From Branchiostoma floridae (Eukaryota > Chordata > Leptocardii > Amphioxiformes > Branchiostomatidae): a stretch of 64,000 nucleotides of DNA. Under the pieces are notes generated by a model that was given only the letters and a program-made list of their open reading frames with translations, was not told the DNA's origin and did not search any database. How positions within the stretch are numbered: position 1 is the stretch's first letter; each line of letters opens with the position of its first letter. Below, piece by piece: positions 380 to 63,267 of the stretch. The DNA is taken from NCBI RefSeq assembly GCF_000003815.2, contig NC_049982.1, positions 21,444,948 through 21,508,947 on the forward strand, read 5' to 3'. The translations under genes were made by a program, and so were the position numbers.

Positions 380-5601
<5,222 letters not shown>

Positions 5602-6346
5602 TTTCAGTTCTTCCCGTCATCCTCCTCCAGGAAGAAACTACTAACTTTGGAGGGGTGAAAGTTTCCTTGGATTTATATCGAGACATGACACATGTGCTGC
5701 GCTGTTTATGAGTACGAGTTTAACGCGTATTACGTGTAACGTTAAGTTAGAGACAATTTTCAAACTGAATCTATTCTGAAATAAAAACAGACGTTGCCAG
5801 TGCATTCTATAGAACCTCTGGTAGGAACAATTCATACATTTCTAACTAAAGATGGTTGAAAAAAATAAAAACTTCCAAACTGCAACAAGATTTTTTGGTT
5901 AAAATTGAAGCAAAGTGTTATATTGTTTCTTGAATAGCACAATACGCATAGCACAAATCCTGTAATACAGATGCCCTTTCTTTCATCCAAGCTCTTTTTT
6001 TTAATTATTTTTTTTCCATTACAGTCTTGTCTATTTGGGACTGTAACTAGTACAATGTAATGGATATCTTTTTTCTTCTTTCTGATCAGACAGTCTTGCC
6101 ATCCATAGATACAAGTAAATAATATTTCACAGAACGGCTAAACAGTGTCATATATCACATTTTTGCCAAAGGCAAAGTTCCTTTTATCTAGTCGTTAAAT
6201 GTACAGTATCATCATCATAACATTACACATAACATAACTATACTTAACGGAATATGGATCATTATGATGATATAAATAAGAGCGATGTCCCATAGCGAGC
6301 TCGAAGTTCAGGTCCGAGGGTTGTCACCCAGTGTTTTTTTATGACC
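5602..6346. other. Interval between HTRA2 start and the H3-variant gene
   Basis: No coding exon seen. It should contain the HTRA2 promoter (near 5602-5800, minus strand) and the 3' UTR of the H3-variant gene (below 6347). AT-rich; I see no TATA box or repeat I would defend. Confidence 0.4.
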
Positions 6347-7384
6347 CTAATGTAGTCTCTCCCCACGCAGCCGCAATGCAAGGTGCATGTCCCTGGGCAT
6401 GACGGTGACTCGTTTGGCATGAAGGGCGCACAAGTTCAAATCCTCGAACAACCCCACAAGGTAGGCCTCTGCAGCTTCCTGTAGGCATCAAACAATAAAC
6501 AGTCATTTAGACAAAATCTTTAAACAAACTGCTATTGCGCAAGTGACCATTATTTCATTTGATTGTTCACCAACAAAACATACGGCTCTTTGCTCAATTA
6601 TAACCAACGGGAGCTTTCATCCTTGCTATAAACGTACAGCTATTACATTTCTGCAAAATTTCAAGCTGAGGCACGTACTTGCAATGCAAAAAGCGCATCG
6701 ACTTGAAACTTCAATTCCAGGTTGAACCGCCAGGCGACCTCTCTGACTAGTCGCTGGAAGGTCATCTTGGGAATGAGAAGTGCCGTGCTGCGTTGGAACT
6801 TGCGGATCTCTTTGAGAGCTTTCCTCCCTGGACGGAAACGCCTTTGCATTTTCCTCTTGTCTGCATTGTACATCTTTGTGCCTGAAAATAAATCATTGTA
6901 CAGTATCATTATATGAACTGCTAGTTCAGCCTGGCCGTTTTCGTAACGTATGGAGGTTTTCAGACAGGTATAATTAATCGTATTGATAATATTTTAGAAA
7001 AACATACGGTGCTCAGAGTGTTGATCTGATCATACAAGCAACGGAGAGATCGCTTGCAAACAGTTCTAATAAGTTCTAGTACTGGACGTTTCAAATTGTT
7101 TTAATTTTCGTTCCATTGATAACGTTAGTCCTAACTCAATCTGCTATACTATGAAAAAATCACTGAATGTTCTTTGACCATATCTTATTGCGGGGGTGTT
7201 TTTTTTTTCTTCAACTTCATAGCAATACGCAGCATTCACCTCGGCCTTGCGTGCCGTGTTGATTCGCTGCCTCCGTGACGAAAGGAGACGGCCAGGGCTG
7301 TGTAGTCGATCTCACCGGAGAGGCGAACGTCACTGGTCTTTGTCGTGAGCCACGCTTTCTCGAGAGTTGCTTGGTTCGAGCCAT
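6347..7384 (-). CDS. CENP-A-like divergent histone H3 variant (cenH3 candidate)
   Basis: Exons 7384-7240, 6881-6679 and 6478-6347 join in phase (145+203+132 nt) to give 159 residues. The tail begins [10 protein letters not shown], as in canonical H3, then diverges completely (no K14/K18/K27-type motifs). The core reads [35 protein letters not shown], an alpha-2 segment ending DALFALQ, then [29 protein letters not shown] and stop after [17 protein letters not shown] and EAAEA are closer to CENP-A than to H3.1/H3.3. Loop 1 is not lengthened relative to H3. Presence of introns and divergence exclude a replication-dependent histone gene. The donor of the first exon (CGAG/GTGAAT) is ordinary but not strong; exon 8427-8370 is a competing first exon. 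Function as the centromeric histone is inference; a testis-type or other divergent H3 variant is the alternative. Confidence 0.8.
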
Positions 7385-7730
7385 TAACTTGTCAACCAGC
7401 AACCACACACAAGAATTCCCTAGTGACGAAGATAACAAATAAAGTAAGCCGACGTCAACAGCGCTATCAAATGTTACCCTTAAACAGAGCAAGTTTCTCA
7501 CAATTACATGACAGCAAATGGTATCATTACGGTATTACCTGAGGCTTAGATAAATACACTTTCGGTGGCAGTCTTACTCTACCTAACGTTACAAGTACTT
7601 TATCCAGCACACTATGCTGAAGGTTGGAATTCAAAAATGGCGGCAAGGTGATCAAAGCTAATGCGCATGCGTTGTACAGTTGTCGTCTGCAATGACACGG
7701 CATCAGAACGCAAAGGTAGAGACTATGATC

Positions 7731-10306: not shown

Positions 10307-13300
10307 ATGATGTTGTTTGTTCAATTCCTGTTCGGATTATCCATTGTGTCTTGCGTCTGCTTGTCAACAACAATAGGTGAGTTTGACTACTATTGTCACG
10401 TGTGCCGTCATAACAACATGTGATGATCACACGGTAGCAAACTTGAAGTAGATAACATCTTTATGTCGCTATATAAATGTTATCAACCCTCTCTGCATAT
10501 TCTTGGGGTTGTCCACTTTAAGAATGATGCTGATTTGGGGGACAAACAACCTGTTTTTGATATCTTTTAATCAACCTTTGACTAGTTCATTACCTTGAAT
10601 GATCTTGCTTTGTATGTGACAAACATTAGGTAGGAAAACATTTTGCTCATAGGTATTTGCATGTTTAATAAAGTATGAATACATTTCAATAGTAATGATT
10701 TAAAACTTTAGCATAAAATCGTTTACGGTACTGGATTGTACCAAGCTCGTTGAGTGCTGCAAACATCATCTTACTCACGTACGGGAATGGACTTTGTTTT
10801 GCAGCCCAGTTCCCGTCGGCCTCTGATGAGGACTATGTCCCCTGCTGGACGGGAGCCCAGTGCGACCCTTGCCCCGCAGGCTTCGTCGGCAGCGTCAACG
10901 GCCAGAGCCGCTGCTGTCCGAACTGTGCCCCACAAGGTAGGGAGCGCGCTTGTACGGATACGGCATCAATAGTCTCTAGATATTCAGTCAGGAACAGTCA
11001 GCAGATGTTGGAAGAAGGTCTGCATCTTTTCCGTAAGGCGTAGGAAAGATCGGAAGGGATCCGAAGAGAAGAGTTCCAACCCTCCAAAGGTGGTGAGTTA
11101 GAAAAAAAATAGACCTATGACATTTAGAAGACATACGACCTTCCCTACTAATATCTGCTTGCAGATTAGCCTTCAGTCTTGGGAATCCATTTCCTGTAGG
11201 CTTTGGAGGAGGCAGATATTTTTGGCGACGCCTCAGAAGCGGAGTAGAAGAGCACAGGTACAGATTACGTGTACAAGATGTTCAAATATTCATTATNNNN
11301 NNNNNNNNNNNNNNNNNNNNNNNNNNNNNNNNNNNNNNNNNNNNNNNNNNNNNNNNNNNNNNNNNNNNNNNNNNNNNNNNNNNNNNNNNNNNNNNNNNNN
11401 NNNNNNNNNNNNNNNNNNNNNNNNNNNNNNNNNNNNNNNNNNNNNNNNNNNNNNNNNNNNNNNNNNNNNNNNNNNNNNNNNNNNNNNNNNNNNNNNNNNN
11501 NNNNNNNNNNNNNNNNNNNNNNNNNNNNNNNNNNNNNNNNNNNNNNNNNNNNNNNNNNNNNNNNNNNNNNNNNNNNNNNNNNNNNNNNNNNNNNNNNNNN
11601 NNNNNNNNNNNNNNNNNNNNNNNNNNNNNNNNNNNNNNNNNNNNNNNNNNNNNNNNNNNNNNNNNNNNNNNNNNNNNNNNNNNNNNNNNNNNNNNNNNNN
11701 NNNNNNNNNNNNNNNNNNNNNNNNNNNNNNNNNNNNNNNNNNNNNNNNNNNNNNNNNNNNNNNNNNNNNNNNNNNNNNNNNNNNNNNNNNNNNNNNNNNN
11801 NNNNNNNNNNNNNNNNNNNNNNNNNNNNNNNNNNNNNNNNNNNNNNNNNNNNNNNNNNNNNNNNNNNNNNNNNNNNNNNNNNNNNNNNNNNNNNNNNNNN
11901 NNNNNNNNNNNNNNNNNNNNNNNNNNNNNNNNNNNNNNNNNNNNNNNNNNNNNNNNNNNNNNNNNNNNNNNNNNNNNNNNNNNNNNNNNNNNNNNNNNNN
12001 NNNNNNNNNNNNNNNNNNNNNNNNNNNNNNNNNNNNNNNNNNNNNNNNNNNNNNNNNNNNNNNNNNNNNNNNNNNNNNNNNNNNNNNNNNNNNNNNNNNN
12101 NNNNNNNNNNNNNNNNNNNNNNNNNNNNNNNNNNNNNNNNNNNNNNNNNNNNNNNNNNNNNNNNNNNNNNNNNNNNNNNNNNNNNNNNNNNNNNNNNNNN
12201 NNNNNNNNNNNNNNNNNNNNNNNNNGTGTCATAATCATATGGTAAACTGTATAACTTGAATGTCTACAGGTAAATCAGGACCTGGAGGTGAGGAGCCACT
12301 AGCCGTAAGGGCGGCCAGTACGGGGGAGGAGGAGGCAGCCGGGCCGGCGGACGGGCCGGGGGAGGGGGAGGATACTCCCGGGCCGTCAACAGGGTCACAC
12401 CGGGAGAAAGGATCGCCGTGACGGTGGGCGAGGCGGGGACTCCGCACTACGCCAAGCCGGGAGACGGGGTGGTGGTTGTCGCCTGGGGACGGGAGATCAA
12501 CCCGACAGGGGACATGGTCACCTGCCCCGGCTGTGCCGACTGTCCCTGTCTGTGGGCTGAAATTACACCAGGTAATTCTGCCATCCATGTGTACCCAACT
12601 TCGGTTAGGGAGGTTCTCTCCCGGTTGGGACGTAAAGCCGCAGGTCCCGTGTTTGAGGAGAGCCATGCCTCGAGCTCACCACACTTGTCGAAAGGTACCG
12701 ATACTGGTCCATCCTGCAGTGAGTGGATCAAACCTGGTCTTACGCAGCTTGATTGTGCTTACTGTTAAAAAAATGACGTATTACGTCTAAAGGCGGTTTA
12801 CTGGTAATGCAGAACAAACAGACAAAACTAAACAGAAAAATAAGAAAGTCAAAGAAAAAGACAGCAAAAAGGAGAGAAAATGAAAAGAATTGGAAAGGGG
12901 TGGAAAGATGGGAAGATAGAAAAGGAGGGAGTAGGGGGTGAAAGTGGAAAGACCAGAAAAGAAAGAAAACGAAAGACATGTATGCACTTCATATGCACTT
13001 CCTGAATCATTTTAATTCACATATCTAGATCCCGCTGTTCCGGTAACCACCGAGCCTCCCCCTGTACCCGAGAATGAGAGGAGGAGGTGTACCGGAAGTG
13101 CCGGTTACTGTCCAGGTGCACACGTGACCGGTGCGCGGTGTGTAGACGGTTTCTGTGAGTGCTCCGGTCAGGAATACCAGAAATACACCTGCTTACGTAA
13201 GTTGACGTTTCCTTTTTGGTCTAGAATTACATTCATGTAAATTACTGAACAGATGAATGTAAAGATGCACTCTCACTGCACTTGCGTCAAGCTTGCGTCA

Positions 13301-16300
13301 CTGCGGGGTTCGTACACTGCGTCACTGTTTTGTTATTTTCTCCGTTTTCTTAAAATAATTTATATACTGCGTAATACGTAAAAGTATGACTTAGAAGACG
13401 ACAAACTACACAAAAAGTAAGAAAATTCGTTCTTTATCTCTGNNNNNNNNNNNNNNNNNNNNNNNNNNNNNNNNNNNNNNNNNNNNNNNNNNNNNNNNNN
13501 NNNNNNNNNNNNNNNNNNNNNNNNNNNNNNNNNNNNNNNNNNCTGCTTCAAACTTCCGTACAGACGGCATCACGCGGAAGGACCAACGACTTTACATTCA
13601 TCTATGTATCATGTATCGCATGCTGTACACCGTAGCTGGATATTGCGATCATATATATCTCGAAGTTCATATTTTAGAGTAATAGAGAGAAAGAAGTTGG
13701 TGCAATACTATAGTGTAACGGTATATCGTATAATCTAAAGCCATTGCAGCTTTTAGCCAATCAAACCTGTCATCTTAATCACCCTAGCGGTTGTCGGAAG
13801 CTGTGCAATATCACGTGACTCCAGCGACGCACGAGCTGTGCCTGGTTTTCAGTCCAGGTCGGGTGAGGTGTACAGTTGTGTAGCGGAGGACAACAGTCAG
13901 TATGAAGTCCACGCTCTGGCCGTGTATGAAGGCTACGGACCACGAAGGTATGTCAACATGTGCGTGTGTACAGCCTTTTCATCGGAACAGAAAGAATCCA
14001 AAACTTTTGTTGTTTATTCTCTTTGGCCTATGAAGTCTGTCAGAGTTGCCAAACGCAAACTAGACTATAGTTCCACTTTATAAAATGTTTGTCTATTTCA
14101 TCCGTCTAGGGGTTTCCAACAGGAGCCAACAGGGGGAGCCACAATGAACGTGTACGTCACCGCGGACCGGCTGGCCAAGCCTGTCGTGTTTGTGTTGAGT
14201 TCTTACGAGCCTGTCAACTGGGTGATCCATCTACCGGATGATGTCGAACTTCATAGAGTTGACCTGGTATGTGGAAGCGAATTGCTTTTGTGGCGTGTTA
14301 AATAAAAGCACTTTGGGAAGTTGTGTTCTCCAGAATGATACAGGTTTCTGTAAAACGAATTCAATACAGTCAACAAAGTAATAACAATTAAAAATATTTT
14401 GGCTAGATGGCCTACTATCTCACGCAACATACCAGTGTGACCGTGCGACGTGGATCAGTCAAAAGGGTGCTACGCCTGTCTGGTCGGATAGGGGGCGTCC
14501 CTGCGTGTGCGTACGGGAAAGACGAAGGCGGTTGCGACACACTGGAGCTGTTGAAATACATCCAAGAAACATTTGGACCCGTGACGTCTTTCACCGGAAC
14601 ATATAGGGCGGCGCAGTGGAGTTTGCGCATAGGTAAATGGTTTACTACTAACGTTACATACAAATCTGGATGAATATGTAAATTCATTCGTTGTCATCTG
14701 TCTTTCAAAGCGTGAATAGATAAAATGACATTTAGGTTTCAACATATTCCCAGACGAGTGCTTAATATATGCTCTCAGGGCAATTTCCTCATGCGAAATT
14801 TCACTTTTGATATGCACAATTTTATGTGCAACTGTCCAATATCTATTAACATTAAGCCAGATAAGACACCGTATATAACGTTAGATATGGAAATAGTGCT
14901 TGGTCACATTGATATAACTTGCGTTTGACATCGTTTCAGGACAACCTCCTGAAGAGTCGATTCCGCCTGGTCAGGTGCCATGTTGGACTGGCTCCCAGTG
15001 TGACGCATGCCCATCCGGGAATGTAGGGAGCGTGAACGGTGACAAGCGCTGCTGTCCGAACTGCGCCGCTCAAGGTAGGCGGCGCTTTTGAGCTTTCGAC
15101 GTGCAGTGTTACCGTCGGAACAACGCTGTTGATTGACTACAGGAGAGTAACTGCGACTGTGGAGATCATCAAGTAACGCTAACGCCATATATAAACATCT
15201 TGGGACTCATGACTGTCTGTAAGACAAAATTTGTGGATGAATACAGCTGATGACGGCATCTTGTCGTTACAGGTTTGATACTGTCACCCTCCTTCTGCTT
15301 TTGCCGCCGGACGCCTGAAACAGATGAAGATGGCGAGGGAGGAGAAATATTAGACACAGGAAGTGACGGTATGTTTTCGTCGGTACTTAGAATTACAAGG
15401 CATAATTTGTGGTGATCAAAGAGAAAAAAAAGGAATACTTGTACTGCTTGATCATCAATATTGATTATATATGTTTGTGTGCATCACAGGTTCTAAAGGA
15501 CAAGTTAAGTTCACCAGGTCCGGAGTATTTGTTGTTCCTGACGGGGTGACCGCCGTTGACGTCATCTGTATCGGAGGTGGGGGAGGGGGGCGTGACGACC
15601 ATGCCGAGATCCTGGGGGCCTATCCGTACGGCGGGAACGGCGGGAATTCTTCCTTCGGACGGTACCTGACGGCGGAGGGAGGGAAAGGCGCCAAGGCGGG
15701 AAACGCCGGTAAGTGCAGCTACAAAAGGCATGATCAATACAAAATGGATGGGCGCTGATGAACTTAAAAAGAAAACTGTAAATCAAAAGGTAGACCACCA
15801 CGACGAATTTCCAATTCTCTTGAGCCAATGAATGGACTCACTTGAGACTACAACATGACGTTGGCATAAACGATAAACGTGCGTAACGTTAACGACTCGG
15901 AAGGTACAGGAGGTATCAACGGTCGCCTACTAGTCGCTAGAATGGCGGAAATCTGTGCAACTTTAACAATTTGTAGTGACATCTTGTGTCCCTAGGCGGA
16001 GAGGGTGGGAAAGGGACCGTGGCGGACGGAGGACAGGGCGGGGTTGGAGGCGGGTGTAGCGCAGGCGCAGGAGCTGCCGGACAGACATCAGGAGGCGGAG
16101 GCGGGCTGGTGCCGGGATCCTCCACACACCCGTTCTGTGGGGCAGGGGGCAGCAGCGGCGGGTCCTCCTGCGGATCCGAGTTTGAGGATATGCCTCCAGG
16201 TGTGTACCCTAATACTAGGCCAGATTCGTAACAAAACACCAGGTAGATACAAGATTTACGTTTCAAACTTTCGATGGAAACAATACAGAAACTGAGGTCG

Positions 16301-19300
16301 GTTCCGGGCGGTCGGGTAACGGGAAACATTTTTCTATACCAGACATAAGCAAGAACTTTTGCGCATAAGATCAGGATACATTATCATATCCTGCAATAGT
16401 AAGTTGACCTTACGGTTCTTTTTAATCTAAGATCAGACAAGAGAGATGATAGATGTAAAGATATATAATACTGGGAGTTAAGTTTTTTTTTATTTAATAA
16501 ACATTTTTTTCATGAACCACAGGTAAATCTGGACCTGGAGGTGAGGAACCAACAAGCCGTAAGGGCGGTCAGTACGGGGGAGGAGGAGGCAGCCGGGCCG
16601 GCGGACGGGCCGGGGGAGGGGGAGGATACTCCCGGGCCGTCATCAGGGTCACACCGGGAGAAAGGATCGCCGTGACGGTGGGCGAGGCGGGGACTCCGCA
16701 CTACGCCAAGCCGGGAGACGGGGTGGTGGTTGTCGCCTGGGGACGGGAGATCGACCCGACAGGGGACATGTTCACCTGCCCCGGGTGTTCCGACTGTCCC
16801 TGTCAGCAAACTGACGCTGTAACAACACAAGGTGTTTACTTAACTTAATATGTATACATCATACATTGCATCACGAACATCACGTATTCAGATCCGTCTC
16901 CAATTTTTCTTTTCTTAAAATGAACCGTTCTTTCTAACCAGCTCCAGACCCTGCAGAAGTCACCGTTCCGGCGACGGTAGAAAGGGCCCGCTGCATCGGG
17001 AGCAGTGGGTACTGCTCGGGGGCTCGCACTACCGGGGCCAGGTGTGTCGATGGGTTCTGTGAATGCACGAAAAAACACTACCAGCGGTACACGTGCTTAC
17101 GTAAGTACAGCCTTTATTCTGTGTGTATGTTTCCCAGCCTCTCTCTGAAGTCAGGTTCCGCATAGCTCACCCGAGTGTCAATCCAGCCTGCTACCCTAAC
17201 TTTCCCAACGTCGTTTTTTGTCCATACTCATTAGATTACTATATTTGGTGCGATCTTGCTTGCCAGCCAATCATAGTACCTCGCGCAACTGTGCATACTT
17301 CACGCGACGCTGTTTTCGACCAATCAGCTGCACTCACCTTAGAAATTACTGTCCTACTGATCTAGCCAGCTCAGCCACTCCGTGGTGCTCTGGCTGGCTG
17401 GTAGCTATAGACCAATGTAAATAAAACGAAAATTCGATAAATTTAACGAAAGGACCGACCGTAAGCCAAATTGTCACTTAGTTTGTCTGTACTTGTTTAT
17501 CACCAAAAGCGGTTGTTGGGAGCTGTGCCATAAGACGTGGATCTGAAAATGCGGAGGCCTCCCAGGCTGCAGAACAGACCTTCAGCTGTGTCGCTGATGA
17601 CAACAGCCAGTATGAAGTGCACGTGCTGGGGGTGTACGAGGGGGTCGGACGCAGAAGGTGTGTACAGCTCATTGTCTATGGGCATGTTTTCTGAATTATA
17701 ACCGTATCCCTGTGGCATATAATCCCGAGAATATCAGACTTGCGGGTAGCTCGTCAATTTCCGTATATCTTGGTGACAACTAATCATTTTCTCTATGTCA
17801 AAACATAGTGTGCTTTTGCACGTACAAAGTTTGCATATTTTATTATTTCGAGGAACTTATATTCGATTTGTATGGACTGCATTATATGCACACTGATGCG
17901 ACCAAAGCAAAATCTATTTTGTCAAATTTCAGGTTGGCAGGGGAGATGAACGTACACGTGACCACAGGCCAGGTCTCAAAACCTCTGGTCTTGGTGTTTA
18001 GCTCGTACGAGGCGGTCAACTGGGTGCTCCACCTGCCGGAGGACGTGGAAGTGCACAAAGTGCTTCTGGTAAGAACAAGAATTTGTGGACCTGGGAAAAA
18101 CCTGACATATCTGGCAGCAGAGATCACACAGTGCTTTTGTTGCTTTTGGCTACACAATTTTGATGAAATGTGACGAGTTAACAATTGTTTCCGCAGATTT
18201 CGTATAATATCGACAAAAGTGACGTAACTCTGCGGAGGGGTTCCGTGAACGATGTGCAGCGCCTGTCAGCTAGGACAGGGGGCGTTCCTGCATGTGCATA
18301 TGGGAAGGACGACGGAGGCTGCAAGACTGTGGAGATGCTGAAGTACATCAAAAGACAGTTTGGACCCGTCTCGTCTTTCGCTGGAACATACAAGACAGAC
18401 AGATGGAACTTGAGAATTGGTGGGTATATGATTTTTTTTCAAGTTTACCAGTCGACTGTGTTCAGCAGCGTACAAAAACCTTGCGCGACTCGTGAGTAGT
18501 TTGATATTGACCAAACTGAATTTCTTCAGGTTCAGTAGAAGCGACGCCGTCCCCTAAGCCTCCTCCCCGATGTGAGCCGCTCCAGGTACGGCTGTGTGAG
18601 GGGCTGGGGTACAACAGAACGTACCTGCCGAATCTAGTAGGGCACGAGTTACAGCAAGATGCGGAACTCCAGCTGCAAACCTACACACCTTTGATTCAGT
18701 ACGGCTGCTACGAGCATTTAAAGGTCAGTTACATAGAGGATTTGACAGCAGTGCATAATGACCAATCTAGACATATCACCGAAATCAGATGTAATTTTGT
18801 GTGCATATGTTTGTCGTTGGTATGACCTGTACTGAGATCGGACGGGCATAAATGTACAATAAATGTCTTCATTCATTCATTTGTTGCATGTCTCGAGCTG
18901 GTAAGAATGGAATTATATACGTATGGGAAGATGGATACACTTTAGCAAACGCAATGTTACACCTTCATCACATAACAGGTTTGTTCTTTTCGTCGACAGT
19001 TGTTCCTATGCTCGATGTACGCGCCTCCTTGCGGAAGTCCCCCGCCATGCCGCTCCTTCTGTCTTGCCGCCAAGCGCGATTGCCTACCCGTCTTGTCCGA
19101 GTTCGGCTTTCCGTGGCCGTCAGCTTTGGACTGTGACAAATTACAAGATGTGACTTGTGAGGAGCCAGAGGAGGAAGAGGAGGAAGAGGACCAGGATGAG
19201 GAAGGTCAGCATCACCTAGATCAAATCTAGTGTTATATCTTAACACTAACTTTACCCCTCCAAAGTCAATAGGTATCAAAGAAGGATAGGCGACGGGAAA

Positions 19301-22300
19301 AGATGGGAGGATAATATCACGGAATGGACAGGCATGACACAAAGTGAAAGATTAAGAAAAACAGGAGTCCAAGAAGACCGTGTAGAAAACTGGTTGTCAG
19401 AAATCTATCTTTTATTTGTTGTTCGGTGTGCCGGCGGACTAAACGATAGATGAAATGAGAAGGTATGAGATGAGAGAGTTGTCGGAAAGAAATACTAGAA
19501 CTAAACAATTAATAAAAAGACAGTTGACGCGTTGAACTGAACATCCGACATTTTCTTGTTGACAGAATACCACGTGAATAAGTGGACGGTGTCCCCCACC
19601 GGTTGCCCATGCTGGTTTAACGAGAGCAGGGAAGACTGTGCGTGCTGTGCAGATGGAGGTTGTCAGTGCGACGAAGGAACCGACATGTAACGTTAACTTT
19701 ACTTGTTGTGCAACTGTTTTAGGTAACGTTATAGGGAGAAGTCAAAGGAAAGGTATTCTGCGCATTCTTAAAATTCATCCAAAAATAGTATTAAAGTTTC
19801 GACAACTTTTCAAAAAAGATGTCAAGACGCACTATCAACGACGAAACAGTAACGTGATAGCTTGTGGACAATATTTACAACATTGAGTGACAGTTCCAGC
19901 ATTTTGCAGGCACTTGTGCGTAGAGTGTAACAGTGACCAGCAGTGCGAGGCGGAACCGTGGGAGATTACCGGTACAGGGTGCGAATGTTGGTTCGACACA
20001 TCCAGACAGGACTGTGCGTGTTGTAGGTAAGATGTCGTAAGGTTTACCTCTGTAACAATTTTGTGTCAAAGCAATCATTTATTTACTTTAGTTGCAAGAC
20101 TGCACAGCCTTGTCTATATTAACGCAAAACGGTAAAAGTTACTAGAACAGAAACTGTAGCACTGATATAGATAGATAGATAGAAAAAGCATGCAGTTGTT
20201 TTAGTAACTTTGGTATAGTGGATCTGTAGTGCCCGTTTAATGAAAAATACTCTGTTAAACAATTGTTACGCATGGTGATTAACCCTGAGTCAGCTACCAT
20301 TAGAACAGGGCGGATGTGTACATGTAATTTTGCCATCTTACAGGTACGGTGGGTGTCAATGTGACGAAACCAGTCCCCACAGGTGCGCCAGGTGTGGGGA
20401 CGACTGCGGGATGGACATGTGGACTCTGACATCTGACGGGTGCGCCTGCGAAGACGACGACACCAGGGACGGTTGTGCTTGTTGTAAAGATGGCGGTTGT
20501 CAGTGCGGAGGCACACAGTCGCATAGATGCGTCCAGTGCGGCCATGAAGATGAGTGTGGTGGTGACAGTCACTCATCGACTGCGCCTCCTGACCTGCCCA
20601 CTACCCCGTCACCAGAGACACCGCCCACCTTCGCCGAACAGCCGGCCAACACCACTGTGGAGCCGGGGGAACAGGTCATCCTGCCGTGCCGTGGGAACGA
20701 GATCAACGGAGAAGAGCCAACCTCCACTTGGTTGAAAAACGGGAACGAGATTTCTGGCTTCATGGGAGGGATTTTCCCGCTGGCCACTGGTGGGCTGCTG
20801 GTGATAGTGGACGAACAGAACAAGGGAAAGTACACATGTAGGCTCGACTTTAACGGTAAAACAGCGGAGGCTACTGTGTGGGTTACTTTCACTTCTGACA
20901 GTAAGTTCTAGTTCTTATCACAAGCAATCAAATTACACAATCTGTTACGCTTTGTTTGTACTGACATTTACATTTATTTTGACTGTCGTTTCTTGTGGCC
21001 TTAAATAAGAGTTCAAAAGACATAAAGGTATCCCATATATGTAAGCTGGCATTAAAATATGCGTATGTATATTATAGAGCCCACAGCGAGATTGGGTAAA
21101 GAGAATTTGACGTTCTTTATGTTCTTTGGTGTTGTGCATTCACTAACCTCATGACCACGAACCCTGACAGGGCCCACCGGACAGCTTCACTTCACGGAGA
21201 AACCAGAAGATCAGGAAGTTCCGTTCGGCGGAAACGTCATCTTCAAGTGTAAGGCATCAGGTAAAGTCACATCTTTGTGTCATATATTAATGTTGAATTC
21301 GAAGTTGTAATGATTTTGCTTTATGTCTCAGGATAGTGGCCGTAGTACCCTTAGACTACAAATATTTTCCGAAAACTAACAGAGAAAATCATAATGTAGC
21401 CATATTCGACAACGATGAATATATTCTACGTAGATGATGAGAAATATGAAATAACATATTCAGCATTAACATATTCAGTTATAACTCTATTCAGTCCGCC
21501 GTACTCCATCACACATTGCGCTACAACCAAGCTACCTTTCACGTGGTATTTCAATTATGGCAAGTATGGCATCTACTGGGAATGAATGGTTCAATGTAAC
21601 AACCTTTTTACCAAAATTGGTAAAAATTCATGAATACAATAAAGCCCAAGGAGTAAATTAGAGTTAATAGAGTGTACGAAAGACACGTTCCCACGTTACC
21701 GTTGTCCACTCATGAGCAGGCGAGAACACAGTGGTTTGGCAAAAGGACAGAATGCCGGGCTCCGAGTTCATCGACGGACGTCGGGTCATCCAGCATCGGG
21801 ACGACCTGTTCATCACGGCGGCCATGTTGTCTGACGTAGGAACCTATACCTGCAGGGTGTTCAACGAAATTACCGGCCAATTCTTGGAGGCTTCTGGTAC
21901 TTTGGAAGTCATCGTACAACTAGAAAACGGTAAGAATTCTGATTTGATTTTCGACAAAATCGTTGAACATCTTTTGCTGTGGAAGCTTGGATCATTGTAT
22001 TCCTCTGCCATCAGTCTGCCTGGGATGCCAACTCGGGAAGGTAACTATGAGACGCGACATAGGGCATGATCCCGACAGAAAATCAGGAACATGTTAAGAC
22101 AGTCTTGTGTGTGTGTCATAGAAAATTTAGCTGTGCTTTGATGGAAGTGATCATCACCAGGGTCTTTGTTGGTGGTAATTTCTGTCATAGCCTCCCGTAA
22201 ATCGTACGACAAAGACATTCTGCGATGTTTGTGACGGTAACCAATATAGTCATAAGGATTGCTAAGCTGAAAAAAACAAATAATGGATATGCCGACCGTT

Positions 22301-24329
22301 ACCACCAGAACACCATAATAGCATACGTCTTGTTATTTTGCATCAATTCTTCTGGTTTACAATTTGCAGTTTGTGGAAGACCCATCCATCGTCAGGCCCC
22401 GGACAGCTACATCGTTGGCGGCACGGACGTGGCCCCGGGCGCGGTCCCGTGGATCGCCATGCTGTGGGACATCCGCCCCGGCAGGAACCGCTTCTTCTGC
22501 GGCGGGAGTCTGCTGACGGCGGAGTGGGTCGTCACTGCCGCACACTGCATTCTGGAGGGGGAGGTCACCAAGGACGACTTCATCATTCGTCTCGGGAAAC
22601 TCAGCTCCGAGCGGGGCATTTTTGAAGAAAACGAAAGATCCACAACAGGTTTGTCCGGCAAGTGTTAGCCTTTACCACGCCAAATTTCCAGGTATAAGAT
22701 CTGGGTTCGGCGCGGTAAAGGTACCTTTTGGAGCGAAATATTAAACATCTGCATACTTGTTCTTCTGTCGCCGCGAATCAGTAAAACGTAATTCGTCTAC
22801 TCTCCAAGCAGAGGTTGAGTCGCGGAGATTTAGTACTAGTAGTAGTCGGGAAATTTACAGTATAATTCGTGTACTATTGGCACAAATGTGTTCCTTTCTT
22901 GCCGTTAGTGTTACAAATTGCAGTGCAATCAATGTGTTGATGATGTGTGTTGTAACATGACTGAAATATGTCTGTTTTAATGCGAACACTGTTACAATTA
23001 TTCACGTATACAGTGCAAGAAGTCATCATCCACCCAAACCACGACCCGAACAATTACGACATTGACATCGCTCTTGTTCGTCTTGCTGAGAGGATCGCTT
23101 TTACCGACTACATCCTGCCGGTGTGCCTCCCCACGGTAGAGGACGCCCGCCGACTGCTCACAGCGCTGCCCGTGGGCTCCATCAGCGGCTGGGGCAGGAC
23201 CATGCAGGATGGTACATTTTCGTCTTCGCTGAAAGAGGTAAGATAATTGTACTTTTCTCCAACATAAGCGTATAATGCATAAACTGCACGATATACGAAT
23301 TCAGATTAAAAACGTTGTGAATTAATAATAGCTCAAAGACAAAATACGATTCCGAAACATTGGTAAGTAGGGTAGACTACACATTGTTCAGCACTTTGTC
23401 CTATACAGTTAATTTAGGTTATCCTCCTGCTTACAATCATAGGGGTTCTCACGACATTTTGTGATCATAGTTTGTTCTCGGATTTTAGGTTTCAGTCTTG
23501 TTGTTACTCATGTGTGTCTTTCTTGTGAATGTTTGCCATGATTGTCGCTCTGTAAAATTATGTTTTTCATAGAAAAATTAATGATAAATAAAAAGAATGA
23601 TTTAAAAAAAATTAAGACGTATTCGAACAACGCGAAGAGCGTATTACTAATTAAGTTAACGGAGTTATGCTGTTTAGTGCTATGTTGCATGTAAGCTAGG
23701 AATATCGATAGAATGATGCTTGAGTTAACTTGCTGCGTTTGTTTAGGTCAAGATTTTTACATGTGCTAACATTAATTTCATTATACTTTGCTTTTATTTC
23801 TCATGTTTATTAGGTCAACGTACCGATCATACGCCAGGGTAAATGCCGGAGAGCCCATGCGCGCTATGATGTAACAAAGAACATGTTCTGCGCCGGCAGT
23901 GAAACCGGAGGGAGGGACTCCTGTGATGGCGACAGCGGAGGACCATTTGTAGTCTACGATAACGGGAAGTCAGTACTACTACTACTAATAATAATAATAA
24001 TAACAATAATGATAGTAATATATAAGTCCCTCAGTAACTTTTATCGCATAATACTTTTCATCACTTTATATGATGAAAGCCTCGTACATTTCAGGCGCTG
24101 GGCTTATCAGACATTTTAAAATAAATACACATATTTTACACATCAATATGTTTCTTGATTGGTTCGGTACAGTTTCCATTCATTATTCTACAATATGATT
24201 TTTTTTAGGTGGAACTTGATAGGAATCGTTAGTTGGGGTGACGGCTGCGCACTGAGAGACAAATACGGCGTGTACACCCGAGTGCACAGGTTCCGCGACT
24301 GGCTGCAGGAGTACATCGGTGAGGAATAG
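10307..24329 (+). CDS. Secreted mosaic serine protease (Gly-rich, Frizzled CRD, Ig, trypsin)
   Basis: Exons: 10307-10376, 10805-10936, [gap], 12270-12571, 13029-13196, 13788-13947, 14110-14266, 14407-14632, 14940-15074, 15273-15368, 15490-15708, 15996-16199, 16523-16831, 16942-17100, 17510-17657, 17933-18068, 18197-18419, 18530-18723, 19000-19204, 19566-19686, 19910-20026, 20344-20900, 21171-21260, 21720-21929, 22370-22648, 23014-23237, 23814-23968, 24209-24329. Phases join throughout except for a one-base deficit in 12270-12571. About 1,705 residues are visible and roughly 170 more are expected in the gap. The first exon encodes a signal peptide ([16 protein letters not shown]). Order: block 1, block 2, Fz CRD, three CACC modules, two Ig, trypsin domain. 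The protein should be secreted and act outside the cell; substrate unknown. It could be two fused gene models, but no stop, start or polyadenylation signal interrupts it. AATAAA at 24665 is a plausible polyadenylation signal. Confidence 0.85.
11297..12225. other. Assembly gap (929 N)
   Basis: Unknown bases inside block 1 of the mosaic protease. By alignment with block 2 (exons 15273-15368, 15490-15708, 15996-16199) the gap probably hides the equivalents of these exons: the distance from the CWTG exon to the Gly-rich exon is 1,334 bp here and 1,449 bp in block 2. The sequence at 11040-11296 before the gap shows no clear exon. Confidence 0.95.
13443..13542. other. Assembly gap (100 N)
   Basis: A round-number run of N in the intron between exons 13029-13196 and 13788-13947 of the mosaic protease, probably a fixed-length placeholder of unknown true size. 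No exon appears to be lost, since the flanking exons join in phase as in block 2. Confidence 0.95.
14940..18419 (+). other. Mosaic protease, duplicated block 2
   Basis: Same order as block 1 with all exons present: CWTG module (14940-15074); linker exon (15273-15368); Gly-rich exons (15490-15708 with [12 protein letters not shown], 15996-16199 with long Gly runs, 16523-16831 ending CPGCSDCPC); [12 protein letters not shown] module (16942-17100); three-exon unnamed module (17510-17657, 17933-18068, 18197-18419; [32 protein letters not shown]). The start [20 protein letters not shown] followed by Gly-rich loops is the usual layout of a Gly-rich beta-roll-like domain. Intron phases equal those of block 1, so the pair arose by tandem duplication. 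Confidence 0.8.
18530..19204 (+). other. Mosaic protease, Frizzled-type cysteine-rich domain
   Basis: Exons 18530-18723 and 19000-19204. The order [20 protein letters not shown], ...[15 protein letters not shown]..., [46 protein letters not shown] is the classic Fz CRD pattern (LC...YN.T..PN, FLC..Y.P.C, C...C...P). Fz CRDs bind lipid-modified Wnts or other lipids; in proteases such as corin they are non-catalytic binding modules. It ends in an acidic stretch ([15 protein letters not shown]) that acts as a linker. Confidence 0.9.
19566..20580 (+). other. Mosaic protease, three tandem CxCW / DCACC / GGCQC modules
   Basis: Three repeats: [17 protein letters not shown]...GGCQCD (19566-19686) then [23 protein letters not shown] (19910-20026) then YGGCQCD...[29 protein letters not shown]...HRCVQC (20344-20580). 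About 10 Cys per unit. The exon borders cut between CACC and GGCQC in the second copy but after GGCQC in the first, so module and exon limits do not coincide. I know no named Pfam family with this pattern; function unknown. Confidence 0.7.
20590..21929 (+). other. Mosaic protease, two immunoglobulin domains
   Basis: Ig 1 lies in the large exon 20344-20900 ([34 protein letters not shown]). Ig 2 is split over 21171-21260 ([20 protein letters not shown]) and 21720-21929 ([21 protein letters not shown]). Each has the two Ig cysteines, the Trp of strand C and a Y.C motif, as in I-set domains. A Ser/Thr/Pro-rich linker ([17 protein letters not shown]) precedes Ig 1. Confidence 0.9.
22370..24329 (+). 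other. Mosaic protease, trypsin-like catalytic domain
   Basis: Four exons encode a complete S1 peptidase. [11 protein letters not shown] holds the linker Cys; [14 protein letters not shown] is the N-terminus of the mature enzyme. Triad: His in TAAHC (22370-22648), Asp in DIDIALVRL (23014-23237), Ser in GDSGGP (23814-23968). The residue six before the Ser is Asp ([11 protein letters not shown]), and SWGDGC...GVYTRV completes the pocket, so trypsin-like Arg/Lys specificity is expected. The bond before IVGG is Tyr-Ile rather than Arg/Lys-Ile, which is unusual. The enzyme should be active once processed. Confidence 0.92.
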
Positions 24330-24879: not shown

Positions 24880-25510
24880 CAACCACTCCAGTCCTTGGTG
24901 CTTAAGTCCATCAACACATACGGAACTATCCTTGTCCTTGGTGCTGAACACCATCAATACATGGACAAGTAAGCCTGTCCATGGTACTGAACACCATTAA
25001 TACATGAGCAACTAAGCCTGTCCTTGGTGCTGAAAACCATCAATAGATGAGCAACTAAGTCTATCCTCGGTTCTGTAAACCATCAATACATGAGCAACTA
25101 AGCCTGTCCTTGGTGCTGAACACCATCAATACATGAGCAACTAAGCCTGTCCTTGGTTCACCATCAATACATGGACAACTAAGCCTGTCCTTGGTACTGA
25201 ACACCATCAATACATGAGCAACTAAGCCTGTCCTTGGTACTGAACACCATCAATACATGAGCAACTAAGCCTGTCCTTGGTTCACCATCAATACATGGAC
25301 AACTAAGCCTGTCCTTGGTACTGAACACCATCAATACATGAGCAACTAAGCCTGTCCTTGGTACTGAACACCATCAATACATGGACAACTAAGCCTGTCC
25401 TTGGCGCTGACCACCATCAATACATGAGCAATCAAACCTGTCATTGGTGCTGAGCATGTATGGGTAACTAAGCTAAGCCTGTCCTTGGTGCTGAAAACTA
25501 TCAATAAAGG
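24880..25510. repeat. 43-bp minisatellite with a shorter variant unit
   Basis: About 14 tandem units built on CCATCAATACATGAGCAACT + AAGCCTGTCCTTGGTGCTGA + ACA. A shortened unit lacking TGCTGAACA-type bases recurs in the order long-long-short, so a higher-order repeat of two to three units is visible at 25080-25400. Units are nearly identical in the middle and diverged at the edges, the usual minisatellite gradient. Confidence 0.9.
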
Positions 25511-26496: not shown

Positions 26497-27580
26497 ATAT
26501 TGCAATCCATACATAGTATGGGATTGCAATATATTGTTTTTGCTGAGTTTCTTCTTCTCCTGTCAAAATCTTCAAGTTGATTCAACTTTTTCATTTTTGG
26601 GCCAAATGAGCTGAAATTTGACAGGGTGGTAGAAATAGCAAATACCCCCAGGTGTTTTTTTCACTTTCTTGATAGAGGCCTTAGAATTTATGATATTTAG
26701 GGTTTTTGGTCATTTTTAGACAAAATATGTATATTTTGGGCCCCTGTGCCCTGGTATTACAAGCTAATGACCTGAAATTTGGTAGAGAGGTGCATTGGAC
26801 ATATGAGCACAGAAAACCATCGGCACCTTCTTCATAGATCACTTCAAAAATGAGTTATTTTAGGGGTTTTGGCCATTTTTGACTAAAAATGTATATTTAT
26901 GGCTCATATGCCCTTGTATTAAAACCAAATGACCTGAAATTTGGTACATAGGTGCATTTGACATATGACCACAGAACCCCATCAACGCTTTATTCATTGT
27001 TTACACCAAAAATGAGTTATTTTAGGGTTTTTGGCCATTTTTGACTAAAAATGTATATTTTTTGCTCCTATGCCCTTGTATGAAAACCTAATGACCTGAA
27101 ATTTAGCACAGAGGTGCATTGAACATATGCTCACAGGACCTCATCGACACTTTCTTCATAGACCTCTTGAAAAATGAGTTATTTTTGGGTTTTCAGTCAT
27201 TTTTTACTAAAAATGTATATTTTTGGCCCCTATACCCTTGTATGTAAACCAAATGGCCTGAAATTTGGTACAGAGGTGCATTGGACATATGACAATAGGA
27301 CCCCATCAACACTTTCTTCATAGAGCACTTATAAAATGAGTTATTTTGGGATTTTTAGCCATTTTTGTCTAAAAATGTATATTTTTGGCATATATGCCCT
27401 TGTATTGAAACCAAATGACCTAAAACTCGACATGAAGGTGTGTAGGACAAGTGCCGAGAGTACTTAATTTTCCCTTTGAGTAGACATTACTTCAAATTGT
27501 TGAATTTGGGGATTTTTTCCAGGATGAAGATGGATTGCAATATGCTGTATTTGCTCCTAAGCAAATGTCGGCCTTTCTAG
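26497..27580 (+). mobile_element. Helitron-like non-autonomous element, second full copy
   Basis: Nearly collinear with 1581-2662: same 5' hairpin (ATTGCAATCCATACATAG...), the same five units of about 163 bp, the same 3' stem-loop ATTTGCTCCTAAGCAAAT and terminal GTCGGCCTTTCTAG followed by T. High identity to the other copy implies fairly recent spread. Lies upstream of HELQ. Confidence 0.72.
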
Positions 27581-34600: not shown

Positions 34601-37600
34601 GTGATGGACGTGATCCCCACCCACTCCTGTCTGCTCTTCTGCCCCACCAAGAAGAACTGTCAGAATGTGGTGGACATGCTGTGTAAGCTACTGCCAAGGT
34701 AAAGGGAGAGGTTTAAAAATCTGCATTTTTACTTGAATTGGGGCTGGTAATGTTTTCAGGCAGACTTCATAACCCCTGCTTCTATTCTTAAGTTAAAACC
34801 TTTCCAATACCTTACAGTGTATAAGGGCGGTGGCCATCTTCATTTCTATAGCCATTACACAGGCCACTACAGCTGAGCATTGGGCTAGTCTTCAATGGCA
34901 GTGAGGTGTATGTAGCTCCCATACTCGTTTTCCAATGTGCTGAGTTAGCTTAAAGCAGTTTGTACCATTTTTCAAGTCTTGGTATTTCCTTCCCACCGTT
35001 TCCTATTCAAAAGAGAATGTATCTATGATTCCCCAGAACTCTCCGTGGACACAAAGTACCCGGGAAGAAGGCCCTTCTGAAGGCCCTGGAGTCTGATGGC
35101 AATGGTACGGTGTGCCCTGTGCTGAAGTACACCATCCCGTTTGGACTGGCGTACCACCACAGCGGGCTGACCATGGACGAGAGGAAACTGATCGAGGAGG
35201 CGTACTCGGAAGGAGTGCTGTGTCTACTGGCCTGCACCTCCACACTCGCTGCAGGGGTCAACCTGCCGGCAAAAAGGTCACACTTTAACCTTCACCCTGC
35301 TAGAGTAGGTTGGTTATTGGGTTGGAAAGGGTTTACATTGCTACCCAAAAATCACAGAAGCTGACTTTTAGTTTTCAATCCTTTTAAAACTGATCAGCCT
35401 GTACTAGGTAGCCTGAGTATACAATCCTCCATAGTAACCGCTGGCTCAATCCTTTTGCTTGCTAAACATGGAAAGGATTGAGCCAGCGGTCACTACGGAG
35501 GATTGTACTTAGGCTATACACTAGGCTTGGAGTATATGTACAAATGAAGATTTCCATGAAACCTCAGAATATGGGGCTTAAGAAGATGAACCAGAAAACT
35601 GGCTCTTGAGTTCATAAGGCTATACTGATGATGGTAAGATAAAGTTAATGTACTATATTTTCTTAACTCAGTTTCTTCTTTCAAACATACTGATGCACAT
35701 GCTGGTCTTTCCTATCGTATGACCACAGGGTGATCCTGAGAGCGCCCTTTGTTGGGGAACACTTCATCAGCAGAGCCCAGTATAAACAGATGGTGGGGCG
35801 GGCGGGCAGGGCAGGCATTGACTCCTCGGGGGAGAGTGTCACCATAGTCAAGCCTCAGGACAAGGCAAAGGTAGTTCACTTCAGCCAAGATGTGGTGTTG
35901 CCAAAAAAAAAGTAGAAGAAATTGTGATCTTTTTCTATTTCAAGTCATTCTTTCTTTTTGTACCAATTATATTTTGCACATAGACTTGTAGGGAGAATCT
36001 GCCTACAAGTTACAATCATAACTTGACAGTTACTGAGGGATTTGAGGCTTTGTTTAATGTTGATGTTTTTTTATTAGATTATTGAGCTGATTGGGAGACC
36101 ATTTGAGAGTTGCCGCAGCAGTCTGATGTATGATGATGGCAAAGGGCTGAGAACACTTATCTTAAATCTCATTGGTCTGAAGGTAATACTTGCATGATCT
36201 CACATATGTTCATTATTCAAAAGGAAATGTTTCTTAAGATTATGGAAAGATGTGTACCATGTGCTATATCAGTCAGTTTAAGGACATTCTGATTCTTAAA
36301 TAAGTGCTCTTAAGGCATTGCATTTAGATATTTTATTTCTGTGGTTTGTGAAAAAATAAAGTAATCAGTGTCAGACCTGTAAATCTTCCTTCCCAGCCAA
36401 CAATTGCACATTTTGTCACCAACACCAACAACCCTAAAAAAAAAAATAAACAGTATGTTGAAGGTTAAAATGCCTATCCCACATGGACTAATGCTGCATA
36501 TCTGTAGTTTATATTTCAATGTAAGACATGGCAATCTTTTATATTAAGAAGTCAGACTTAATGATATGATTTCCAAACTACTGTCTTCTATTTTATCTGT
36601 TGTTCCAATGTTATAAATTTCATTTTACCCAGATTGCCACCAGCAGAGCAGCAGTGTCAGCCTTTCTGAGCCACACCCTCTTCAGTGTGCAGTGTGATTC
36701 TCAGCAGGACCAGGGTTTCCTGGAGTTCACCCAGCATGCCTTGCAGGTGAGTTAGATTGTACTGATGATCTTGAAATTAATGTTTGCAGTGGTTTTATTT
36801 TTGTGGTTTTCTCTTGACATGAGATCATGACACCCCCAGTATAACTTGTTTTCCTACTACAGAAGTATAGAACTTCAACAACTGAACCTCATTTCATCTC
36901 CTACCACATAATATAGTCCCCGCAATAATAGATGAACAAACTGTATGTCCCATAGATAATGATCGAGATGAAAAAAAATTATGGCAGCTTGAATTTGCAA
37001 GATGACATCCAGACTTATTCCCAGATTCATTTCTTCCTTGTTCATTGCTGCAATGTATTCTTCTTGGATCTTGTTTAAGATATTGGAAGATTATGTCTAT
37101 TCTGTCTTGTAAATAGTGTCTCATTCCCCTTGCTCAGGACTTGGTAGAAGTGGGGCTAGTTACAGAGAAGACATTACTACCAGCAGACAGTGGAGATGAG
37201 GACATCCTGCTGGAAGTGACCAGACTGGGACAAGCTTCTTTCAAAGGTTAGTGTCATTAGTTAGTGTAAGCTTTTAGTGAAGTGGATTTATGGCCAGTAA
37301 GTTACCTTGCTAACAATGGAAAGAAAATGTCAGCTTGCCAAGAGACTGTCCTTTCATGGACTTTTTGTATATTCCAGATCAAAACCAAACTATTCTGAAT
37401 CCGTAATTGATGCAAGGTGAAGTAGGTTGTCATTGATAGCTGAATGGTTCTTTGTAATTCTATTTGGTCTTTTTCATGGCCTGAGTACCATCCTCTATAG
37501 TGACTGCTGGCTCAGTACTTTTGCTTGCTAACCATGGAGAGGATGGTACTCAGGTTAACTTTTTCATGGAAATATTAGACTGAATAAGAGCTGTCCCATG

Positions 37601-40350: not shown

Positions 40351-41900
40351 AAGATGTAGAGAAGGAGATAAGATAGAATTGATTGGATGAACTATAGTAA
40401 ACCTCAAACTTCTGAAGATGTTGGAGCTGCAGTTATTTAAAATTGTTTGAAAAATGAATTGCACAAATACTGTGATTTGATATGCCTAAAAAGATATGTC
40501 GGTGCCTTATTTAAAGAATCCTAGGTATGGTTTCCTGAAATGTTTTACCATATGTATTTATAAACCAGTTACCATATTTTCTCGAATAAAGTAAGCACTG
40601 TGATGAAATGATGAAAAGTTGCTGCTTGTTGTTGCCAAAGTCGGGGTGCATGTATTACCTTGTTTGAGGTTATTGCACAGATAAATGAGAAAAAGACCTC
40701 AAATAGAGCAAAGTGGTGCTACGCTTTTAGGAAGGGGGCAAAACTATACACATTGTTTTTGTGTACAACATTTCTTCTATTCTGAATGTTTTCTTATAAC
40801 CGGCAGTAGGCAATTTGTGGGTCTTTAGAAACATTGACAGTGGGGGTTTATGTAGAATTACTTAGCAAAAAGAGAAGAAAATGTCATAGATTTGAATCAA
40901 GTTCAAGATTGGTAAAAAAAGGGTGCATACTTGATTTGAGTTTTTCCATTGCTTGCCCCAAATTGGGTGCGTATTTTGATTGGGATGCATACTTTCCTCA
41001 AGAAGATAGGTAGTCAACAGGACTGTCCAACTCAGTCGTAATCAACTATATATTTCCCCCAGCAATAATTCTGGCCAACAAGCATTTTGGGAGACATCCC
41101 ATACCAGTTGCTTTATTGATAGGTGATGGCTTTTATGTTTTATCTTAGAACAACATGAATTGTCATCTGAAGGACTACTTACATTTGTACATGTATACAT
41201 GGAGGTCCCTAGAGTCTAGAAACAATTGTAGAAACATTACATATTTTCCACTTTGTATTACTGGTATATGTAGTTCTAAAAGGAATAGATAGACTACATC
41301 ATAACATTTTTGTTTAAGTTGTTGCCCATTTTTACCACTAAACATGTGTAAATATGAAATATGTTCCTCAATGACTTGCGGTGTAATGGCTGATGCCAGA
41401 AATGACATTTTCACAAAACCCCTTCAGACCCTTAATTTGTGTTATGGGGCTTACATTAAGACAATGCAGCTTAGGAATTCTCGTTTTGAATTTTTTGTTC
41501 TCATAGACGAGTGACTGTTCATACTTTGGTTACTAGTATGTACACACAACAGTGTCATTTGAATTGAAAGCATATTTTATTTGTATGCCATCCCTCCTAT
41601 AACATGAACTTATTTATATTGAGGATACTAACCTTAATAAAAAAAGGGACGTTGTAACAATGTATGTTTATGACTTGTTTCCTAGTCCTGTTTCTCTGAC
41701 GACAGAATAACGCAGGTTGAATGTTAACATCTAAAACTACTTTGCCGGTAGACTGAGTAAACCTGTCTGGACTGCAAACAACATTAAAAAGCCATCTGAG
41801 GACTGCCTTTAGAAGTACAGTACTGTTTTACGCCTCGTGAGTACGGCCATTTGGAACAGTGCAGTTGAGGTATAGCTCACTTTAACATGACCAGGGAGAG
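40351..41900. other. HELQ 3' flank and upstream region of the receptor guanylate cyclase
   Basis: No coding exon. AATAAA at 40585 is a possible HELQ polyadenylation signal. A possible old MITE spans about 40573-41009: the left end TCTCGAATAAAGTAAGCA and the complement of the right end, TCTTGAGGAAAGTATGCA, are similar, and GGGTGCATACTTGATTTGAG repeats inside. The cyclase promoter should lie near 41700-41880; no clear core element seen. Confidence 0.4.

Positions 41901-55525: not shown

Positions 55526-63267
<7,742 letters not shown>

Follow-up and report, generated by a model that had tools for sequence, protein, structure and literature searches.

The stretch of the Branchiostoma floridae genome analysed here (the window; 64,000 nucleotides, C4:21444948-21508947) raises the question of whether positions 10307 to 24329 encode one secreted protease built from an unusual series of modules, or several neighbouring genes that only appear joined when their exons are read together. 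An earlier note had described at this place an uninterrupted chain of exons running from a signal peptide through two copies of a Cys-rich/Gly-rich/unnamed block, a Frizzled-type cysteine-rich domain (CRD), three CACC modules and two Ig domains to a trypsin domain. This architecture turned out to be largely real, both in its domains and in their order, with copy A of the repeated block being broken as assembled. The gene model comprises 27 exons over 10307-24329, with GT and AG flanking all 26 of the 26 exon-exon gaps. The exons were placed by hand from open frames, splice sites, similarity between the copies and domain matches, and are distributed as follows (u-domain designates the block that had been left unnamed).

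10307..10376, + strand: exon E1, start codon and signal-peptide-like stretch of 23 residues (best 11-residue hydropathy 2.42), with a GT donor in phase 1
10805..10936, + strand: exon A_cys, Cys-rich block of copy A, 6 Cys, 79% identical to B_cys over 33 residues
11297..12225, no strand: assembly gap of 929 N, from the spacing in copy B the expected place of copy A's other Gly-rich exons
12270..12571, + strand: exon A_g3, last Gly-rich exon of copy A, which lacks one base compared with copy B and so falls out of frame in the assembly
13029..13196, + strand: exon A_lnk, 6-Cys EB-like linker of copy A, named by resemblance
13788-13947, 14110-14266 and 14407-14632, + strand: u-domain of copy A, three exons
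14940..15074, + strand: exon B_cys, Cys-rich block of copy B
15273..15368, + strand: exon B_x, short acidic linker
15490-15708, 15996-16199 and 16523-16831, + strand: Gly-rich domain of copy B, three exons
16942..17100, + strand: exon B_lnk, 6-Cys EB-like linker of copy B
17510-17657, 17933-18068 and 18197-18419, + strand: u-domain of copy B, three exons
18530-18723 and 19000-19204, + strand: Frizzled-type CRD, two exons, then an acidic tail
19566-19686, 19910-20026 and the first part of 20344-20900 (to about 20580, an approximate end), + strand: three CACC modules, 10 Cys each
20581..20900, + strand: Thr/Pro linker and Ig domain 1, sharing their exon with CACC module 3
21171-21260 and 21720-21929, + strand: Ig domain 2, two exons
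22370-22648, 23014-23237, 23814-23968 and 24209-24329 (stop), + strand: S1A trypsin-like protease, four exons

The 24 exons between 13029 and the stop codon (24327-24329) join in consistent phase into a single open frame of about 1,537 codons. Over this part, the introns between blocks are all in phase 1; departures from phase 1 are confined to introns within the u-domain, CRD, CACC run and protease. Before 13029, copy B served as the guide to the phases around the N gap and on both sides of A_g3, and the interval between A_cys and A_g3, which contains the 929 N, may hide further exons. A second assembly gap (100 N, 13443-13542) lies inside the intron 13197-13787. The signal-peptide-like first exon that had been claimed was recovered by hydropathy at 10307-10376, and the Pfam search proposed in the earlier note for each block confirmed Trypsin, Fz and two Ig domains. 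Judging from these joints, the gene appears to have been assembled from phase-1 exon modules, like reshuffled parts of other lancelet genes.

The protease matches Pfam Trypsin over the full profile (1-220 of 220; E 2.6e-61), and the Ig domains match I-set in two stretches (1.1e-17). Alignment with thrombin showed that His57, Asp102, Ser195 and Asp189 are present, the catalytic triad being intact, and thrombin, MASP-1 and plasma kallikrein gave the best PDB matches (among the best 60 of 559 matching sequences). The chain also contains both the Cys of CGRP and the Cys of LPVCLP, the usual interchain partner with which the former presumably pairs. In S1A proteases the residue before the activation cleavage is usually basic, a feature that is not strictly defining; in the window protease the site reads PDSY↓IVGG, with Tyr standing before IVGG.

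A survey of S1 domains in the same genome assembly (513,431,437 bases in 431 contigs; 59 matches listed and 114 of 271 candidates scored, which makes the resulting list of Ig-S1 loci a lower bound) revealed at least four other places where Ig adjoins S1, namely C3:23.08 Mb, C12:8.74 Mb, C14:9.73 Mb and C19:9.04 Mb, with two Ig domains being seen at the C12, C14 and C19 loci. Their activation sites read EGF↓IVGG, DGF↓VVGG, DGF↓VVGG and DGF↓IVGG, with Phe in all four; as far as can be read from these exons, an aromatic P1 is common to all five Ig-S1 genes seen (Y, F, F, F, F). Lys was found before the activation site in both other S1 loci read (L041 and L043). The window gene displays the features of this small family (Ig adjoining the S1 protease, CGRP and an aromatic P1), and its relatives, which have an aromatic residue before [IV]VGG, are 45-75% identical to it in the aligned protease exons. 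They differ from it in having no CRD, CACC, Gly-rich domain or u-domain among the genome-search matches (8 kb examined at three of the four, plus the 3.3-kb loci). The previous statement that no known family has this architecture needs to be qualified accordingly: in the genome searches made, the whole combination was seen only in the window, where alone the genomic places of CRD, CACC, u-domain and Gly-rich matches coincide with those of the Ig-S1 list (itself a lower bound), but Ig plus S1 constitutes a small family in this genome, and u-domains, CACC modules and Gly-rich domains are also found elsewhere in it.

What such a protein might do can be approached from its layout. We give about even chances to a secreted mosaic S1A zymogen whose N-terminal modules would hold it at a surface or ligand and which, once activated by a cut after Tyr, would act in defence or in the matrix. 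In this model, the Cys-rich, Gly-rich and u blocks, the CRD and the CACC modules would localize the enzyme to a target surface or to a ligand that carries lipid, where a chymotrypsin-like protease would cut after Tyr in PDSY↓IVGG. The catalytic trypsin-like chain would stay disulfide-linked to the recognition chain after the cut, and would cleave its substrates after Arg or Lys at the target site. Localized proteolysis in host defence or in the extracellular matrix would be the most likely role; the part in innate immunity suggested in the earlier note is likewise putative.

Such an arrangement would work like MASP or C1r, without their modules. MASP-1 and C1r share with the window chain the placement of recognition modules before a disulfide-tethered trypsin-like chain, but they carry CUB-EGF-CUB-CCP-CCP ahead of the protease and Arg before the activation site, whereas the window chain has no CUB, EGF or Sushi match (Pfam, E up to 1) and Tyr in place of that Arg. 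The combination of Ig and Fz CRD in one chain is known from MuSK and ROR; the window chain differs from these in having no kinase match, its catalytic part being a protease. Corin, like the window chain, unites an Fz CRD and an S1A protease, and it has LDL-A repeats, an SRCR domain and an N-terminal type II anchor; the window chain shows no LDL-A or SRCR match and begins with a signal-peptide-like stretch (hydropathy) instead of the anchor. It also has one CRD, where corin has two according to PMC6747125. As predicted from the sequence, the window chain is organized like the targeted, tethered proteases MASP and corin, and falls outside the definition of either family.

The same architecture was not found in the open-licence papers searched, including the accessible parts of PMC2575513, PMC4284660 and PMC6767649, the last of which surveyed trypsin architectures with B. 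floridae among the species; this statement applies to that literature and not beyond it. Phase-1 shuffling has been described as common in lancelets: phase 1 is described as the intron class that they shuffle most, with very high shuffling rates reported (PMC4284660, in part). Less expected are the domain shared with cyanobacteria (see below) and the aromatic activation site, for which the literature searched offered nothing relevant, and which points to a protease subfamily with a non-standard site of activation.

The CRD bears on the link to Wnt or lipid binding that the earlier note had suggested. It matches Pfam Fz over positions 1-108 of 110 (2.4e-29) and carries all 10 Cys, nine of them within the span aligned to FZD4 and one just after. 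The nearest relative in the genome, the best of 62 matches, is a 590-codon Frizzled-4-like frame at C9:5126201 (62% identity), and 60 of 100 aligned residues are identical to FZD4 in the PDB, with a five-residue deletion in the window CRD. A tree was built from the window CRD, FZD4 of the PDB and 14 of the other genome matches; among these 16 CRDs, the window CRD, C9:5126201 and FZD4 formed a group with support of 94/98, short of the program's starred level. This kinship and the complete set of Cys favour the main functional rival, a secreted modulator of the Wnt pathway whose CRD would bind Wnt or another lipid ligand and whose protease would trim that ligand or its receptor; modelling in PMC6747125 likewise predicted that both CRDs of corin bind selected Wnts with high affinity, although the same text calls the functions of these CRDs unknown. 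The Norrin-Fz4 study PMC4497409, in the part available, counts Asn55 and Lys109 of FZD4 among the specificity determinants, and the window CRD has Gly at position 55 (chain numbering) while its deletion shortens and removes the Lys109 loop. Since both named determinants are absent, binding of Norrin is unlikely and Norrin was rejected as ligand. The Wnt modulator as a whole seems unlikely to us, with the defence or matrix zymogen being retained as the working model.

The remaining N-terminal blocks gave few matches. The Cys-rich and CACC blocks have no Pfam match. The three CACC modules are nonetheless as claimed, each with 10 Cys in near-identical spacing (1,8,1,0,4,1,7-8,2,3-5); they found nothing in NCBIfam and nothing better than E 0.8 in the PDB. 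In the genome, 14 CACC matches were obtained including those of the window, the other places being on C5, C8, C10 and C18, in the neighbourhood of TSP1 on C18 and EGF_CA on C10 (both Pfam) and of a TSP1-like frame on C5 (recognized by eye). The Gly-rich domain of copy B reaches Pfam Gly_rich_2 (PF21722) with E 0.0015 and 19.1 bits, below the cut-off of 24.3, and its exons recur in the genome only in the window and on C2 (seven matches). The Gly-rich part also matches the phage tail family phrog_863 (E 1.9e-8), a match that may reflect composition because tblastn against phages found nothing; against the PDB nothing was found below E 0.07. EB as a name for the linker was rejected as weak, with Pfam EB giving E 0.62 in copy B only.

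The u-domain has no match in Pfam or NCBIfam, only two in the PDB (E 0.3 and 0.79), and no relatives among the plasmids and viral contigs searched. A first scan of genome contigs returned 34 pattern matches, none of them a relative, and a second scan, with 26 pattern matches, yielded two relatives in the cyanobacteria Okeania and Lyngbya. These were aligned by tblastn at 9e-11 and 2e-8 (E-values relative to the candidate stretches) over residues 1-103 of a 105-residue query taken from the second and third u exons, and the u-domain aligns over its whole length between lancelet and cyanobacteria, with 28-32% identity to copy A. In the cyanobacteria it forms the C-terminal part of proteins of 347 and 344 residues, which have no Pfam match for this domain either; the likeness consists of this C-terminal domain over its length, the N-terminal half differing from the lancelet chain and the proteins showing no protease, Ig or Fz match. 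As read by eye, the cyanobacterial u-domain follows a hydrophobic, probably membrane-spanning segment and is probably extracytoplasmic. A four-row model (two window copies and two cyanobacterial sequences) was run against 292 genomes sampled from the phylum to which the Lyngbya genome belongs; 11 of these, the Lyngbya genome among them, gave a match, strong in ten cases (4.5e-47 or better). Because cyanobacterial rows are part of the model, the strong scores mean that the family recurs in that phylum, and do not measure the closeness of the lancelet copies. The one weaker match (L082 in genome G235, of the same phylum; E 1.7e-11) comes from a 515-codon frame in which a divergent u-domain is combined with another N-terminal half.

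In the lancelet genome, 15 u-domain matches were obtained in five blocks: the two window copies, C4:21.336 Mb, C2:21.83 Mb and C7:3.96 Mb. On the same strand at C4:21.336 Mb, LDLR class B and EGF-like (FXa_inhibition) matches precede the u-domain and Sushi follows it, and at C2:21.83 Mb a Gly-rich match precedes it and a SUEL lectin follows, these neighbouring exons presumably belonging to the same genes as their u-domains. Nearby same-strand frames at C7:3.96 Mb held no identifiable domain. A tree of the five lancelet copies did not resolve their relationships. The locus therefore points to a domain without Pfam or NCBIfam match that is common to lancelets and cyanobacteria. A tentative scenario, to which we would not attach much weight, is that animals acquired the u-domain either by transfer or through very early descent, that phase-1 shuffling carried it into four or more lancelet genes, and that it would serve here as the sensor on a protease family activated after an aromatic residue, forming a recognition-triggered proteolytic switch. 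If true, this switch would be unlike the Arg-activated complement and clotting cascades.

A rival explanation is that at least two adjacent genes were fused by our reading, for example an upstream Gly-rich/u-domain gene and a downstream Ig-trypsin gene, as phase-1 exons can be spliced on paper to almost anything and three Ig-Ig-S1 loci have no CRD, CACC or u-domain (8 kb examined at each). All 26 exon-exon gaps were scanned for AATAAA or ATTAAA and for possible new starts followed by a hydrophobic leader (own criteria). Leader candidates appeared in 2 of the 26, two overlapping ones in 13197-13787 and one in 21930-22369, where an open stretch with a hydrophobic segment lies ahead of the protease exon; against a fusion, this hydrophobic stretch overlaps, and so doubles as, the pyrimidine tract of the acceptor. 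PolyA-type hexamers were present in 12 of the 26 gaps and say little, because they lie mostly inside domains and are common by chance. The joints themselves are tight: u-domain B and the CRD are separated by an intron of 110 bp, CACC module 3 and Ig domain 1 share an exon, and the 307-bp intron between copies A and B contains neither polyA hexamer nor leader candidate. The Ig-to-protease intron measures 440 bp, and this junction is supported because Ig adjoins S1 at four other loci. The loosest joint of the chain is that from CRD to CACC, with an intron of 361 bp and a polyA-type hexamer at 19511. Fused genes are accordingly judged improbable, and we regard the single gene predicted over 10307-24329 as likely. 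The single mosaic secreted protease proposed earlier is in this respect well supported, by the exon chain and its very short introns. Our confidence is tempered by PMC6071037, which cautions that unusual architectures in lancelets may stem from errors of gene prediction and attributes to such errors the architecture differences that it examined. Whether lancelets really possess many new extracellular architectures created by phase-1 shuffling (PMC4284660, in part) or whether these stem from prediction errors (PMC6071037, likewise) is disputed, and the locus is a good test case because several of its joints are fixed by the 110-bp intron and the shared exon rather than by a predictor.

The claim that failed is that of an uninterrupted chain, since copy A as assembled is broken by the N gap at 11297-12225 and by the one-base frameshift in A_g3. 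Both Cys-rich blocks and both unnamed blocks were found, and the Gly-rich domain is complete in copy B; copy A retains only the last Gly-rich exon. Over five exon pairs (262 codons), the copies differ at codon positions 1/2/3 in 71/58/153 cases, with pN 0.24 and pS 0.73, a pattern that is, from such counts, that of long-separated coding sequences under constraint (purifying selection). The last Gly-rich exon departs from it: 12266-12550 and 16519-16804 are 96.5% identical, with 6 differences in 247 bases after the shift, against pS of 0.64-0.86 in the five other pairs. Local gene conversion would account for this near-identity, and so would a misassembly next to the gap. A recent tandem duplication of the A/B block was considered and rejected, because only that exon is near-identical between the copies and because u-domain B is closer to the C4:21.336 Mb block (79% identity; u-exon pS 0.16-0.33) than to copy A (62%; 0.64-0.73). 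That the frameshift is real and the locus a decaying or null allele making no full-length protein is very doubtful: A_g3 is one base different and, in the phase 1 of its copy B counterpart, does reach a stop before the exon end, but every other exon of the model is open, the defect sits close to an assembly gap and borders the stretch near-identical to copy B, as conversion or misassembly would give, and a transcript that skipped A_g3 would join phase 1 to phase 1.

The rest of the window contains several other features. On the minus strand upstream of the gene, 4366-5616 holds a Trypsin_2 exon with an HtrA-like look, and at 6664-7534 lies a histone-fold exon of divergent sequence (Pfam Histone 1e-12), accompanied by a separate N-terminal piece that resembles H3 and has no Pfam match; the latter gene is possibly CENP-A-like, to judge from these pieces. 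Downstream, on the plus strand, a helicase C-terminal match below its cut-off was found at 35029-35361, and exons like those of a receptor guanylyl cyclase (ANF receptor, a kinase match just below cut-off, and cyclase) at 41886-48061. Tandem repeats of a similar 162-bp unit form two arrays about 25 kb apart (1777-2510 and 26696-27425), and two arrays of one 53-bp unit, 95-96% internally matched, stand in opposite orientation at 56876-57298 and 58151-58616. Finally, an Rfam mir-2060 match (25297-25389, minus strand) falls inside a 43-bp tandem repeat at 24891-25453. One member of the mir-2060 family is listed from Branchiostoma belcheri, and a published miR-2060c-3p sequence of that species (PMC5650284, in part) has eleven minus-strand matches in the window with 0-2 mismatches, one of them exact, ten being at 24930-25477 and one stray at 43052; the mir-2060 microRNA family may be derived from a minisatellite.
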